Source of the DNA: Nocardioides ganghwensis
Lineage (GTDB): Bacteria; Actinomycetota; Actinomycetes; Propionibacteriales; Nocardioidaceae
NCBI RefSeq assembly: GCF_014779655.1
Contig: NZ_JACXYX010000001.1
Span: 1 to 64,000, forward strand
Reading direction: 5' to 3'
DNA length: 64,000 nt
Shown here in pieces: positions 5,167 to 61,311 of the stretch (within the stretch, counting starts at the first letter, position 1; each line of letters begins with the position of its first letter). The translations under genes and the position numbers were made by a program. The notes beneath the pieces are model-generated. The model was not told where the DNA came from and did no database searches. It was given only the letters and a program-made list of their open reading frames with translations.

Positions 5167-6750
5167 TCAGATCCAGCGCTGGAACCAGATGCGGGCGTCC
5201 CACTCCGACTTCGTCAGCAGCTCGTCGGTCCAGATCGGCCAGAACCAGGCGAACGCGACCAGGGCGAGCACGGTGTAGCTGCCGGCCACCACCACCCCGA
5301 ACGTACGCCGGGGTGTGGGCACGTCGGAGGAGCCGACCAGGTGACCCATCGCCAGCACGACCGACAGGACGAGGAAGGGCAGGCAGGTGATGGCGTAGAA
5401 GAAGAAGATCGGCCGCTCGTCGAAGGCGAACCACGGCAGCCAGGTGCTCGCCAGGCCCACGACCGCCACCCCGTGGCGCCAGTCCCGGGCGCCGATCCAC
5501 AGCAGCAGCGAGGCCACCATCGCCAGGCACCCGCCCCACCAGATGACGGGGTTGCCGATGAGCAGGACCTGGCGGATGCAGCTCGACCCCGACGGCGCCT
5601 CGCAGCCCTGCGAGCCGGGCTGGATGTCGGTCTGGGCGTCCACCCCGACGGGTCGTCCCATCACCAGCCACGTCGACGGCCTCGACTGGTAGACGTGGGT
5701 CGAGTCGTCGAGGAAGTGGCTGTGGAAGGTGTAGACGTCCTGGTGGTAGGACCACAGCGACCGCAGGGACTGGGTGACCTCGCCGAGTCCCTCGGCGTCG
5801 GGCTCGCTCGCCGTCGGCCACGGGTCGTCGCCGCCGTAGGAGGTGTACTGCGTGTTGCTGAACGCCTCCTCGTAGGCCTCGGCGTTCATCAGCCAGCCGG
5901 TCCACGACGCGACGTACGTCGCCAGGGCCACGCCGACGAGGGCGACGAAGGCGGGGATCCCGTCGAGGAACACCGAGCGCAGCAGCGGCCGGCGCTCGCC
6001 GAAGGCGCGACGGGCGCCGGCGCTCCACAACCAGGCCAGCAGCCCGAAGGCGGCGAGGGTGTAGGCGCCCGACCACTTGGTGCCGCACGCGAGGCCGAAC
6101 GCCACGCCCCCGACCAGCAGCCACGGCCGCCACCAGAAGAGCCAGCGGCTGCGGGCCCGCTCCGATGCCAGCCGGTCGCGCAGCCACTGCCGGTCGGCGA
6201 CCACGCAGTGCACGCCGCAGAGCAGGAAGAACGCGAGGAAGATGTCGAGCAGCGCGAGCCGCGACAGCACGAGCTGCAGGCCGTCGACCGACAGCAGCAG
6301 GCCGGCGACGAGTCCGAGGACGGTCGAACCGGTGACCCGCCGCACGAAGCGGCACATCACCAGCACCATCAGTGCGCCGACGACGGCCGAGGCGGTGCGC
6401 CAGCCGGCAGGATCCATGCCGAAGACCTCGATGCCGCCGGCGATCACCCACTTGCCCACCTCGGGGTGCACGACCATCGACGGGGTGTCCTGGAACAGCC
6501 CCGTCAGGTCGCCGTTGAGGATGGTCTTGTCGGCCTCCTCGACGTAGGTGCGGACGTAGCCGAAGGTGAGCAGCGACCAGGCGTCCTTGGCGTAGTAGGT
6601 CTCGTCGAAGGAGAACTGGTGCGGGGTGCCGAGGTGCCACCGGCGCAGGAAGAAGGCCAGGCCCGCCAGGCAGATCGCCCCGAGCCAGCCGGCCAGCGGG
6701 TCCTCCGACCGCCAGCGCGGGCGATTCCGCTCGGCGGCAGTCGGGTTCAC
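5167..6750 (-). CDS. pmt: Dolichyl-phosphate-mannose-protein mannosyltransferase
   Basis: This 527-residue polytopic GT39/GT-C enzyme has the acidic first-loop motif FSFDETYYAKDAW (residues about 42-54), which carries the catalytic Asp-Glu. A PMT C-terminal four-helix domain follows, with the HSHFLDDSTHVYQSRPSTWLVMGRPV segment near the middle. It transfers mannose from polyprenyl-phosphate-mannose to Ser/Thr of exported proteins at the outer face of the membrane, probably alongside Sec export. Mycobacterial pmt (Rv1002c) likewise lies next to rsmI. The GTG start is supported by the leaderless -10 at 6757-6762. Confidence 0.9.
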   Translation of the reverse strand: MNPTAAERNRPRWRSEDPLAGWLGAICLAGLAFFLRRWHLGTPHQFSFDETYYAKDAWSLLTFGYVRTYVEEADKTILNGDLTGLFQDTPSMVVHPEVGKWVIAGGIEVFGMDPAGWRTASAVVGALMVLVMCRFVRRVTGSTVLGLVAGLLLSVDGLQLVLSRLALLDIFLAFFLLCGVHCVVADRQWLRDRLASERARSRWLFWWRPWLLVGGVAFGLACGTKWSGAYTLAAFGLLAWLWSAGARRAFGERRPLLRSVFLDGIPAFVALVGVALATYVASWTGWLMNAEAYEEAFSNTQYTSYGGDDPWPTASEPDAEGLGEVTQSLRSLWSYHQDVYTFHSHFLDDSTHVYQSRPSTWLVMGRPVGVDAQTDIQPGSQGCEAPSGSSCIRQVLLIGNPVIWWGGCLAMVASLLLWIGARDWRHGVAVVGLASTWLPWFAFDERPIFFFYAITCLPFLVLSVVLAMGHLVGSSDVPTPRRTFGVVVAGSYTVLALVAFAWFWPIWTDELLTKSEWDARIWFQRWI

Positions 6751-13333: not shown

Positions 13334-13347
13334 CCGCTGGCCTGGCC

Positions 13348-13400
13348 GCATCGGGGCCGGATCGGGGCCGGATCGGGGCCGGATCGGGGCCGGATCGGAG
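13348..13400. repeat. Tandem 11-bp repeat after ispE
   Basis: Nearly five units of GGATCGGGGCC run from 13348 to 13400, the first and last being imperfect. Like the repeat at 10091 the period is 11 bp, although the unit differs. Confidence 0.85.
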
Positions 13401-13461
13401 ACGGGTCCCGACCGGGAGGCTTGAACCGCGGCGGACGGGGAAGCATCCCGCTATGTTGTGC

Positions 13462-14004: not shown

Positions 14005-14025
14005 ACCCTCCTGATCCCGTCCTGA

Positions 14026-14110
14026 TCTCCTCCTGTCATCTCCTCCTGTCATCTCCTCCTGTCATCTCCTCCTGTCATCTCCTCCTGTCATCTCGTCTCG
14101 TCTCGTCTCG
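14026..14110. repeat. Tandem repeats in the flotillin leader: 5 x 13 bp plus 4 x 5 bp
   Basis: Five exact units of TCTCCTCCTGTCA occupy 14026-14090, followed by four TCTCG units (14091-14110). Each 13-bp unit contains CTCCTCC, complementary to the flotillin ribosome-binding site TAGGAG at 14115-14120 and similar to the 3' end of 16S rRNA. Confidence 0.9.
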
Positions 14111-14128
14111 TCGCTAGGAGCACCGCCC

Positions 14129-33641: not shown

Positions 33642-33689
33642 CGCCTGGCGCTTGCGCGGGAGTCACCGGTTGACCGGCGACTCCAGGAA

Positions 33690-33736
33690 GATCATGGAAG
33701 GTCCGAGCCACCAGGTGACTCGGATCCTCCACGATC
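33690..33736. repeat. 47-bp palindromic repeat, copy A
   Basis: 23-bp arms flank a single A. The left arm starts GATCATGGAAGGTCC and the right arm ends ATCCTCCACGATC. The arms differ at four positions, all transitions compatible with G-U pairing. It lies 48 bp after miaB. Its right end extends into a further 12-bp inverted repeat (33729-33740 with 33784-33795) that brackets a DnaA-box-like TTGTCCACA at 33740-33748 and reaches the start region of the AbiEi-like gene. Confidence 0.85.
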
Positions 33737-33800
33737 GCGTTGTCCACAGATCGTCCCGAGGGGATCGTGCAACGGCGTGCACCACGCGATCGTGGATCGG

Positions 33801-34778
33801 GTGACCGATCTCGATCGCCTGCTCCTCGCGCAGGACGGTGTCGTCTCCCGGGCCCAGGCCCTGCACGCCGGCCTGCACCCCCACGACCTGCGTCGGCTGG
33901 TACGCCGTCGTGACCTCGCTCCGCTCCTTCCCGGCGTGTACGTCTCCCACACGGGCGAGCCGTCCTGGGTGCAGCGAGCATGGGGTGCGGTGCTGGCCTG
34001 CGCGAGTCCGCGCGGTGTCGCCGGCGCCTCCCTGGGCGCGGCCCTCGCCGGTGCCTCCGCGATGCGAGCCGCCGACGGCCCAGGGCGCCCCGGCGCGGAC
34101 AACGGACCGATCCAGGTGGTCGTGCCCCGCAGTCGGCGCGTGGTGGCGCCGCCGGGCATCGCGGTGACCCGCACGTTCCTGCTGCACGACCGCGTCCAGT
34201 GGAACCTCGGCCCGCCGCGGCTGCGCTACGACGAGGCCGCGCTCGACGTGGCTCTCGGGAGCGATGGCGACCTCGCGGCGGTGGGGGCGATCGCGCGCGC
34301 GGTGCAGGGCCGACACACGACTGCCGTCCGCATGCAGCGCTCGCTGGCGTCACGCAAGCGGGCGCCCCGTCGCGACTTCCTCGACGCCGTCCTGCGCGAC
34401 GTGGCCGACGGGACGTGCTCGGTCCTGGAGCACGCCTACGTCGACCGGGTGGAGCGCCCTCACGATCTCCCTCGTGCTGATCGCCAGCGACGAGCCGGGA
34501 CGGCGACCGGCATCGTCTACCGCGACGCGGTCATCGGCGAGCGCGTCATCGAGCTCGACGGCCGGCTGTGGCACGACACCGCGGAGCAGCGGGACAAGGA
34601 CTTCGAGCGGGACCTCGACGCGGCGATCGTGGGGCTGGACGCCGTACGCCTCACCTGGGGCCAGGTCGTCGGACGACCGTGCTCGACCGCGGCGAAGCTG
34701 TCGTTGCTGCTCGAACGCGACGGCTGGCCCGCTGCCACGCCCTGCGGGAGCGGCTGCGTGCTGGCCGTCGCCGCGTGA
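33801..34778 (+). CDS. AbiEi-antitoxin-like N-domain with C-terminal DUF559 (Vsr-like) domain
   Basis: The protein has 325 residues. Residues 1-55 (TDLDRLLLAQDGVVSRAQALHAGLHPHDLRRLVRRRDLAPLLPGVYVSHTGEPS) match the winged-helix N-domain of type IV AbiEi antitoxins. The C-terminus has VIELDGRLWHDTAEQRDKDFERDLDAAIVGLDAVRLTWGQV, the DUF559/Vsr-like endonuclease-fold motif. No AbiEii toxin gene is adjacent, so this is an orphan. Function is unknown; DNA binding is likely and nuclease activity possible. GTG 33777 and 33792 are alternative starts. The gene interrupts the miaB-miaA neighbourhood, lies between palindromes A and B, and its TGA stop is shared with copy B. Confidence 0.7.
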   Translation: MTDLDRLLLAQDGVVSRAQALHAGLHPHDLRRLVRRRDLAPLLPGVYVSHTGEPSWVQRAWGAVLACASPRGVAGASLGAALAGASAMRAADGPGRPGADNGPIQVVVPRSRRVVAPPGIAVTRTFLLHDRVQWNLGPPRLRYDEAALDVALGSDGDLAAVGAIARAVQGRHTTAVRMQRSLASRKRAPRRDFLDAVLRDVADGTCSVLEHAYVDRVERPHDLPRADRQRRAGTATGIVYRDAVIGERVIELDGRLWHDTAEQRDKDFERDLDAAIVGLDAVRLTWGQVVGRPCSTAAKLSLLLERDGWPAATPCGSGCVLAVAA

Positions 34779-34823
34779 TCGTGGAGGATCTGGGCCAGCA
34801 TGTGGCTCGGATCTTCCACGATC
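34777..34823. repeat. 47-bp palindromic repeat, copy B
   Basis: The arms start GATCGTGGAGGATC and end GATCTTCCACGATC around a central A, with five arm mismatches. It begins inside the TGA stop of the AbiEi-like gene. Judged by the GGAAG versus GGAGG arm asymmetry it is inverted relative to copy A. Confidence 0.85.
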
Positions 34824-34862
34824 GCCGGGAGTCGCCGGGTCCCGCGACTCCCGACGAACGTC

Positions 34863-54505: not shown

Positions 54506-54700
54506 CCGCTGGTTGAGCAGGGCGCGCAGCGCCCGTGTCGAAACCGAGGCTGAACGGACCCTTGGTTTCGACACGCTCGTGCCTCGCTGCTCAACCGGCG
54601 GGGCCGTCCTGCCGCTGGTTGAGCAGGGCGCGCAGCGTCAGCCTGCCGCTGGTTGAGCAGGGCGCGCAGCGCCCGTGTCGAAACCGAGGCTGACCGGCGG
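54506..54700. repeat. Nocardioides-type intergenic repeat cluster
   Basis: Three direct copies starting CCGCTGGTTGAGCAGGGCGC lie at 54506-54557, 54612-54637 (truncated) and 54646-54700. One inverted partner (GGTTTCGACACG to CTGCTCAACC, 54564-54601) pairs with the first copy as a long hairpin. The cluster fills the gap between phoD and the oxidoreductase gene (54434-54706); no gene is present. Confidence 0.9.
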
Positions 54701-59590: not shown

Positions 59591-59836
59591 CGCATTTGCT
59601 GCTTCGGTGGTCGAGTGGCTGCGAGGCGGCGTCCTGAGTGCCGGTGAGGGACGAGCCGGCGTATCGAAGGGGACGAGCGGGCGACAACGTGGAAGTTCTG
59701 AGTCACCTGGTGACCCAAGAGCTCCACGATCTTTTCGAGCGCCGGTTGTCCACAGGCTTTGCCTCCGGTCTGGTTCAGACCACGCCCGAATGGGTAGTTT
59801 CACCCGTGCTGACGTTGTTCTCGGGAAGGCACCTTC
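59591..59836. other. Intergenic region with decayed repeat, palindrome C and a DnaA-box-like site
   Basis: After the terminator come a decayed Nocardioides-type repeat (GGTGGTCGAGTGG to GTATCGAAGGG, about 59608-59671), palindrome C, and TTGTCCACA at 59746-59754. No gene was recognised; the frame GTG 59691 onwards shows no coding character. Confidence 0.5.
59685..59731. repeat. 47-bp palindromic repeat, copy C
   Basis: The arms begin CAACGTGGAAGTTC and end GAGCTCCACGATC around a central T, with the core GAGTCACC/GGTGACCC. It has the same orientation as copy A by the GGAAG arm. Like copy A it is followed at close range by TTGTCCACA. Confidence 0.8.
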
Positions 59837-61134: not shown

Positions 61135-61171
61135 TCGAAGTTCACTCGTACCACGCACGAGCGAACTTCGA
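61135..61171 (+). terminator. Terminator after the PKD-protein gene
   Basis: TCGAAGTTCACTCGT and ACGAGCGAACTTCGA pair with one mismatch over a 7-nt loop, 7 nt after the stop codon. Confidence 0.85.
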
Positions 61172-61264
61172 GTCCGACCCCGCCCAAGCTCCTGGGCGCG
61201 AAGAGTGCGGTGCGTGTGGTTCACCAGGCGCACCACGGCCACCGCACAGACGATCAGCGAGCAA

Positions 61265-61311
61265 GATCGTGGCAGTTCCGAGCCACCGGGTGACTCAGGT
61301 CCTCCACGATC
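61265..61311. repeat. 47-bp palindromic repeat, copy D
   Basis: The arms start GATCGTGGCAGTTCC and end GTCCTCCACGATC around a central G, with the core GAGCCACC/GGTGACTC. On the minus strand its outer bases form the TGA stop of the small membrane protein gene, in the same arrangement as copy B (TGATCGTGGAGGA). Confidence 0.85.

Follow-up and report, generated by a model that had tools for sequence, protein, structure and literature searches.

Insertion sequences of the IS200/IS605 group have an imperfect palindrome near each end, both facing the same way, and make no target duplication. In REPtrons, the gene for a RAYT enzyme (TnpA-REP) is flanked by its own palindromes, of which dispersed copies lie mostly downstream of genes and in convergent gaps, with one palindrome family per enzyme lineage (PMC6006769 and PMC3733652, in the parts available). 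According to the accessible part of PMC7319586, the AbiEi antitoxin of Streptococcus agalactiae binds two inverted repeats of 23 bp with 3 bp between them, and Rv2827c of Mycobacterium tuberculosis binds pairs of 23-bp repeats. A locus that can be compared with these systems lies in the first 64,000 nucleotides of contig NZ_JACXYX010000001.1 of Nocardioides ganghwensis (hereafter the window; contig C13 of the 4.5-Mb genome G000). Two palindromes, A and B, and the single open reading frame (ORF) between them form a 1,134-bp unit (33690-34823, measured between the outer palindrome ends). On the genome comparisons below, this unit is read, with a probability of about 0.7, as a member of a family of ~1.1-kb actinobacterial mobile elements that would be self-mobile and would work in the manner of IS200 or REP systems, with an unrelated enzyme.

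A and B, like C and D further along the window, are 47-bp imperfect palindromes of one family, built as 23 + 1 + 23 bp, and the claim of an earlier note on this DNA that palindromes bracket an AbiEi gene was confirmed, since A and B enclose this one ORF. A half-site pattern with at most 3 mismatches gave 18 matches in the genome versus 0 for the reversed control, and model R1 gave 20 matches, which correspond to ten palindromes, so the family is not due to chance; R1 was built from ten copies of this same genome and is hence partly circular, and its counts, like those of model R2 below, are per strand. The palindrome search was odd-centred, ungapped and 47 bp long, and copies with indels escape it. 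All six copies beyond the window are intergenic, four in gaps between convergent genes and two between genes that run in the same direction; these neighbours are approximate, since the genes near lone palindromes were predicted with a home-made codon-score script. When folded as RNA, the four window copies are on average more stable than their shuffles (z -4.1, -8.9, -2.7, and -2.6).

The mobility of the unit was suggested by copies at different sites. The elements at L192 and L197 (M. aquaticum), in Mycobacterium, are 91-92% identical, while their flanks are not homologous, and their alignment begins and ends at most 5 bp from the outer palindrome ends. Over 40 such different-site pairs, all from mycobacterial records and one actinomycete metagenome-assembled genome (L222), the median breakpoints were -4 bp on the left and -2 bp on the right, with 70% and 52% of the ends within 15 bp; 5 of these pairs are duplicates because L225 and L264 are one locus. 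These pairs largely refute the idea of a resident regulatory gene, in which the palindromes would be AbiEi-type operators and bidirectional terminators and nothing would be mobile. Such a gene would be in keeping with the autoregulation of AbiEi and Rv2827c via paired 23-bp inverted repeats in their promoters (PMC7319586, accessible part), with palindromes that are intergenic, near gene ends, and stably folded, and with a long vertical inheritance at miaB. However, the homology of unlinked copies stops at the outer palindrome ends, gene-free sites exist, and both orientations occur at one gap, with nearest relatives at other sites, which makes this explanation very improbable.

The state of the gap in relatives is best followed in M. 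brisbanense (L211, identical to G491/L336), where the unit lies between two convergent genes and its ends are identical at 46 of 47 positions. The upstream flank matches in 198 of the 297 genomes of that genus, and the best 30 loci were examined: one has the full unit and three have lone palindromes (G406, G397, and G551) of two families, 38-42 of 47 positions being identical to known ends. By eye, G575 has one further palindrome with small indels, and G509 a shorter hairpin. Eighteen of the 30 gaps are short (at most 41 bp) and have no such palindrome (in G342, there is a short downstream match only), five have other, longer contents (G387, G431, G311, G483, and G377), and G390 has no downstream match. 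This one mycobacterial gap is therefore found in three states: empty, with a lone palindrome (the kind of site for which the earlier note had proposed to look), and with the full unit.

Another explanation of these states is a free-standing homing endonuclease that cuts lone palindromes, into which its gene is then copied, leaving a palindrome on each side. Lone palindromes of known families in this same gap and ends that are mostly direct repeats would follow from such a mechanism; moreover, the catalytic domain of the encoded protein has the predicted fold of the EDxHD enzyme I-Bth0305I (Z 10.9), the target of which is nearly 60 bp long and bound by a dimer (PMC3943268, in the part available). 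However, only 3 of the 28 gene-free loci (both flanks found, among the best 30 of 198) hold a palindrome, with a fourth by eye, a count that ancestral palindrome loss may have lowered; there is no palindrome at miaB in G030 or at mshD in G007; and the 91-92% identical unit has both palindromes at each of two unrelated sites. A homing endonuclease is consequently considered unlikely, and the same absences go against the preferred insertion into palindromes that the earlier note had envisaged.

In the 1.5 kb fetched at the mshD gap, the gene was matched in 6 of 19 genomes (G074, G022, G012, and G061, and in part only in G084 and G053) and unmatched in 13. Compared by eye, G074 and G007 differ by the entire palindrome-gene-palindrome block, and G007 has no palindrome. 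Upstream of mshD, in gaps that lack the AbiEi element, there are other long palindromes, TAGGGACGA... in G096 and G089 and TGAGGACG... in G017 and G030 (loci L289, L295, L296, and L297). Downstream of mshD (L290, L297, and L301), a palindrome family GCGTCATACGAAGC...GTATGACGC is present, of which G077 has several copies.

In the window itself, the unit is bordered by miaB and a conserved ORF of 100 residues. Among 30 loci of the miaB gap, the gene is on the miaB strand in the genome studied here and in six others and on the opposite strand in nine. In G030, the next conserved gene starts ~30 bp past the miaB stop and the palindrome is absent, while G077 has one lone palindrome ahead of a different downstream gene. 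Between G022 and the genome studied here, MiaB is ~96% identical, whereas the element protein is 50% identical, reversed, and accompanied by other palindromes. In a tree of 87 proteins, which includes 20 miaB-gap elements, the strand label switches three or more times on well supported branches, and two miaB-gap elements have their nearest relatives elsewhere (L089, of the same genome, for L038, and L088 for L035). The strand changes and these nearest relatives argue that elements moved to or from the miaB gap. As far as genome comparison goes, the palindrome-to-palindrome unit differs between sites, its ends match, and lone palindromes are scattered between genes. The different sites, the two orientations at miaB, and the gene-free and lone-palindrome sites indicate that the A-gene-B block behaves as a mobile unit, and in this respect the earlier proposal of a moving cassette is supported.

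The pairing of gene and palindromes is not restricted to the window. A homolog of the window protein was matched in 85 of 98 genus genomes and in 128 of 197 genomes in a class-wide search; both sets are samples of larger groups, and several results cover the best loci only. The 200 loci compared are made up of 90 genus loci (the 30 best and 60 further among the matches listed), 80 loci from named GTDB genomes (best 80 of 278), and 30 class-wide loci, the sets partly overlapping. In a joint test that requires two palindromes with at least 32 of 47 positions identical, a pair was found at 115 of 200 loci, whereas of 765 mock genes of 1 kb positioned within the same DNA only 2 had one. The pairs are distributed over 49 of 90 genus loci, 66 of 93 others (L178-L270), and 0 of 17 distant loci (L271-L287, with 38-44% identity except for the partial same-genus match L273). 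The 115 paired loci, which occur in Nocardioides, Marmoricola, Mumia, and mycobacteria, include 90 distinct pairs.

In a simpler test, a strong palindrome was present on the left at 51 of the 90 genus loci, on the right at 67, and on both sides at 41, versus 2.2% and 1.5% per side in shuffled flanks and 5 left, 14 right, and 2 both among 59 control genes. At these 41 loci, the identity within pairs averages 0.81 versus 0.46 between loci (the largest of 2,000 permutations gave 0.53), and the best match of 33 of the 41 left ends is their own right end. As regards orientation, 63 of the 90 distinct pairs are closer as direct repeats, 18 as inverted repeats, and 9 are equal; in the 46 decidable pairs (a difference of at least 4 positions), 41 are direct and 5 inverted. 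The bases directly outside the 90 pairs are not conserved, with a mild A/T depletion at some positions. Vsr nicks at T:G mismatches in CCWGG, and 58 of 180 palindromes have CCWGG at their centre, which is only suggestive as regards Vsr.

The ORF product has 325 residues from 33801 (GTG), the start inferred by alignment with relatives, or 333 residues from 33777, the longest ORF start; the stop codon overlaps palindrome B. Its nearest named relatives are from Nocardioides. In Pfam, AbiEi_4 is above the cut-off (residues 12-56), DUF559 has no match in the window protein, and MTES_1575 reaches only E = 0.22; among 47 aligned relatives, AbiEi_4 is found in 39, DUF559 in 1, and MTES_1575 in 2. Searches of NCBIfam, PHROGs, and PDB sequences with the window protein matched nothing, PADLOC returned AbiEi models only, and no Rfam family reaches the gathering score within the window. 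An AlphaFold2 model based on a 47-row alignment has a mean predicted local distance difference test score of 89.4. Foldseek gave two PDB matches below E 0.001, Rv2827c (1zel, 1.3e-4) and the AbiEi antitoxin of S. agalactiae (6y8q, 1.6e-4). In VIA, residues 7-210 align to 6y8q (Z 8.7, root-mean-square deviation 4.2 over 185) and residues 215-317 to I-Bth0305I (3r3p; Z 10.9, root-mean-square deviation 2.5 over 95), the next matches of the nuclease half being NGO0050 (Z 10.3) and Vsr (1cw0, Z 9.5; 1vsr, Z 8.4); the absence of a family from the VIA list was not counted as evidence. E218, D250, E259, D261, H266, and D275 are invariant in both protein alignments and probably form the active site. 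The window protein is thus predicted, from its modelled structure, to join an AbiEi-antitoxin-like DNA-binding half to a nuclease half of the Vsr/I-Bth0305I type. The label AbiEi/DUF559 of the earlier note was therefore right for its first part, via AbiEi_4, while DUF559 was unmatched even though the C-terminal fold is predicted to be Vsr-like. The idea that palindromes accompany every AbiEi_4 gene was rejected: the genome has 3 PF13338 genes and R1 finds no palindrome (E up to 1) at the other two (L025 and L027), and the 17 distant loci have no pairs.

Does the protein follow its palindromes? For 90 proteins, protein and palindrome distances are correlated (Mantel r 0.47; the largest of 2,000 permutations gave 0.18). 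Palindrome distance is related to the N-terminal half given the C-terminal half (partial r 0.34; the largest of 1,000 permutations gave 0.15) but not to the C-terminal half given the N-terminal half (partial r 0.02, permutations up to 0.17), which points to the AbiEi-like half as the palindrome reader. The earlier note had considered a non-autonomous cassette; however, the enclosed gene encodes a predicted nuclease with a DNA-binding half that tracks the palindrome sequence, so the element probably carries its own enzyme.

The alternative is that another, trans-acting enzyme moves the palindromes, the nuclease gene being a passenger or an unrelated regulator. Lone R1 palindromes in genomes that lack an R1-type gene (G022, G030, and G077) could be explained in this way, as could the other palindrome families found in the same gaps. 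But the palindrome sequence tracks the N-terminal half of the encoded protein, R1 palindromes occur in only 2 of 13 genus genomes without a single-protein match versus 64 of 85 with one, and a Y1 transposase (Y1_Tnp, PF01797) was found in 0 of 98 genus genomes versus 5 of 14 control genomes, in a search that covered Y1 and no other transposase family. A trans-acting mover is accordingly judged even less likely than a homing endonuclease.

A second palindrome family was followed with model R2 (the GTGCGGTGGCTG family), built from 11 sequences of G000, G007, G012, G017, G084, and G096 and so partly circular. R2 matches 18 of 98 genomes. Among the nine genomes with the opposite-strand gene at miaB, it matches seven (G075 31, G096 16, G046 14, G022 11, G007 10, G084 8, G045 1, G061 0, and G076 0); three further opposite-strand genomes from the tree (G003, G005, and G093) have 0. 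Among the seven same-strand genomes, it matches six, mostly few times (G074 12, G000 4, G017 4, G019 3, G012 2, G089 2, and G053 0), and there are 17 matches in G062. The lone palindrome families thus follow the elements loosely. A count of second-family copies by a short pattern gave a background at the control level. In G047, which has no element-protein match, the 18-base word GTGAGGGGGCTGCGGTCC is present exactly eight times among the matches listed (e.g., C1:982353-982370).

Close to the left palindrome, another motif is regularly present. In 82 of 90 distinct units, TCCACAG, mostly as T[TC]NTCCACAG, is found inward of the left palindrome at a distance of at most 80 bp, versus 0, 1, and 1 of 90 in three control flanks and 0 of 61 control genes (within 200 bp upstream). 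T[CT]NTCCACAG occurs three times in the window, two of them beside A and C. The TTNTCCACA form fits the actinobacterial DnaA box TTGTCCACA. It also fits, in part, the DnaA-box consensus TT[AT]TNCACA given in the accessible part of PMC6006769.

The earlier note had also seen a second cassette between C and D, with a lipoprotein gene and a PKD gene as cargo, and had named cargo without palindromes as a refuting finding. This cassette did not survive comparison. Of the 18 relatives fetched, 15 have both genes. The left gap of three of them (G074, G022, and G012) lies outside the fetched stretch; in the other 12, palindromes of the AbiEi type are found on both sides in 3 (G007, G045, and G053), on the right only in 8, and on neither side in 1 (G071), so the left palindrome is missing in 9 of 12. 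Low matches, with 32-34 of 47 positions (G089, G030, and G019), may be due to chance. The lipoprotein/PKD pair was rejected as cargo and corresponds to ordinary conserved neighbour genes. Palindrome C, with the DnaA-box-like motif alongside, may be a relic of the left end of a lost unit. Lone palindromes of several families collect in the gap downstream of PKD. Upstream of nrdR, GTGGCGGCAGATCGCATCTCGG... palindromes are near-tandem in G084 (L319 at 899 and 972), and a similar one is present in G053 (L333 at 1238).

Features of the window, with positions counted from its first nucleotide
Feature	Position	Strand	Remark
Palindrome A	33690..33736	.	left unit end, 47 bp; R1 match 73 bits
TTGTCCACAG, DnaA-box-like motif	33740..33749	+	3 bp inward of left palindrome
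ORF, AbiEi-like N-terminal half and Vsr/EDxHD-like nuclease C-terminal half	33801..34778	+	predicted structure
Palindrome B	34777..34823	.	right unit end, 47 bp; R1 match 68.7 bits
Palindrome type 'E' (GGGAGTC...GACTCCA)	33658..33685	.	immediately outside A
Palindrome type 'E'	34827..34852	.	immediately outside B
Palindrome C	59685..59731	.	family of A/B
TTGTCCACAG beside palindrome C	59746..59755	+	motif match
Palindrome D	61265..61311	.	family of A/B; lone copy, convergent gene gap
Lone palindrome, second family	61205..61247	.	among R2 model sequences
Third-family palindrome (TCGAAGTTCACTCG...)	61135..61171	.	by eye resembles that of homolog locus L091

Type 'E' palindromes (GGAGTCACCGGATATCCGGTGACTCC and variants) adjoin A, B, and the lone copy of contig C24 (L021, immediately left of position 5999), and are also close to several miaB-site elements of relatives; a miaB terminator or a separate repeat are candidates for the one beside A. 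Elsewhere in the window, a direct repeat family (CCGCTGGTTGAGCAGGGCGCGCAGCG..., 54506-54697) has three copies inside 200 bp, and there are short tandem arrays of 13-bp and 11-bp units at 14012-14115 and 13344-13409.

How might such an element work? Each would consist of one gene with, as its ends, two copies of its own 47-bp imperfect palindrome. The protein would bind each palindrome through two AbiEi-type DNA-binding domains, each on an arm of 23 bp, and the Vsr/I-Bth0305I-type nuclease would nick or cut the ends, so starting excision and reinsertion. Ends that are mostly in the same orientation and the lack of a target duplication suggest a strand-specific recognition of the ends, perhaps as hairpins. 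The DnaA-box-like motif at the left end may link expression or movement to replication. Lone palindromes would be either non-autonomous copies or scars after the loss of the gene between two direct palindromes. Predicted fold, position, and co-variation argue for the part played by the enzyme, and it is from these that we infer the role of the nuclease.

Several observations weigh against a self-mobile element. Of 121 similar pairs, 81 are at the same site, which means that elements have also been inherited vertically for long. Across the 90 palindrome pairs, neither a target-site duplication, for which the earlier note had suggested looking, nor an insertion or flank motif was seen. The gene-free sites may have lost an earlier palindrome, and inversion in place could account for some of the strand changes at miaB. 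There is no qualifying pair at 85 of the 200 loci, including all 17 distant ones, so relatives of the gene exist without palindromes; in 14 of these 17, the DnaA-box-like motif precedes the gene, to which it would therefore belong rather than to mobility. A and B are identical at 38 of 47 positions when direct and 39 of 47 when inverted, and hence of undecidable orientation, which also applies to the 'opposite orientation' of the earlier note if A and B are what it refers to. The correlation between protein and palindrome is also expected from joint descent, and for pairs below 60% protein identity it is not significant (r 0.17, with permutations of up to 0.19). A profile detects a distant relative in two of the 13 'gene-free' genomes (G042 and G080). 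The R1 palindromes of G022, G030, and G077, where an R1-type gene is missing, are consistent with gene loss or replacement, and they allow for a trans-acting enzyme as well as for simple loss. As for the nuclease, the Foldseek match to I-Bth0305I is weak (E 0.61), and unrelated ribosomal chains score Z 8.7 against this part. Transposition, binding, and cleavage are all predictions from the comparison of genomes.

If the self-mobile element is real, a widespread actinobacterial gene that Pfam describes at best as an AbiEi-type regulator drives a mobile element that resembles the RAYT/REP and IS200 systems but does not share their descent. A set of extragenic palindromes would gain an enzyme, a nuclease of the Vsr fold would act in transposition, and the DNA-binding domain of an antitoxin would have been recruited to mark the ends of an element. 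Since every element comes with both an enzyme and ends of its own, the proposal is directly testable. Taken further, this would be a new class of DNA mobility enzyme, in which an antitoxin-derived DNA-binding half that reads both arms of the 47-bp palindrome is joined to a nicking nuclease of the Vsr type; the enzyme would move the gene that encodes it and spread lone palindromes, possibly via hairpins at the replication fork under the control of DnaA; this fuller version is put forward tentatively, at slightly under even odds.

It remains to set the unit beside the known systems. In the open-access literature, no link of AbiEi, DUF559, or Vsr-like proteins to such palindromes was found among the matches listed, nor anything joining AbiEi with DUF559, most subscription papers being outside this scope. 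Like the REP/RAYT systems, the unit has a single gene inside its own palindrome family and dispersed copies, with ten copies of the family in this genome. Unlike them, it has no Y1/HUH transposase, its enzyme being predicted to be AbiEi-like plus Vsr-like, and, in 90 pairs, no conserved tetranucleotide of the GTAG or CGTC type lies beside the 47-bp palindrome. Transposition as a unit is said not to occur in REPtrons (PMC6006769, in the part available), whereas the AbiEi-nuclease unit appears to do so. With IS200/IS605, the unit shares its single small gene, an imperfect palindrome at each end, the two mostly facing the same way, and the absence of a target duplication; it differs in an enzyme from an unrelated superfamily, in the lack of a Y1 transposase, and in palindromes that are outermost. 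A RAYT or IS200 enzyme as the mover was rejected for the 98 genus genomes, none of which has a PF01797 match, and the unit is therefore, by descent, neither an insertion element of the IS200 type nor a REPtron.

The predicted fold of the catalytic domain is that of the EDxHD homing endonuclease I-Bth0305I, to which the long dimeric target also belongs (PMC3943268, in the part available). However, the unit differs from this enzyme in its AbiEi-like fusion, in its two bracketing palindromes, and in gene-free sites that are mostly without a palindrome (assuming that the palindrome is the recognition site). With AbiEi and M. tuberculosis Rv2827c, the likeness is in the predicted N-terminal fold and in the paired 23-bp inverted repeats that both recognise (PMC7319586, accessible part); the difference is in the nuclease fusion and in candidate sites that are at both ends and dispersed in the genome. 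No gene for an AbiEii (nucleotidyltransferase) toxin is present in the unit, which has one gene-like ORF between A and B, and the unit is therefore not a toxin-antitoxin pair. Every family of mobile elements or toxin-antitoxin systems considered thus fails a defining test, while the kinship of the nuclease half with the Vsr fold, which it is predicted to share, is not disputed.

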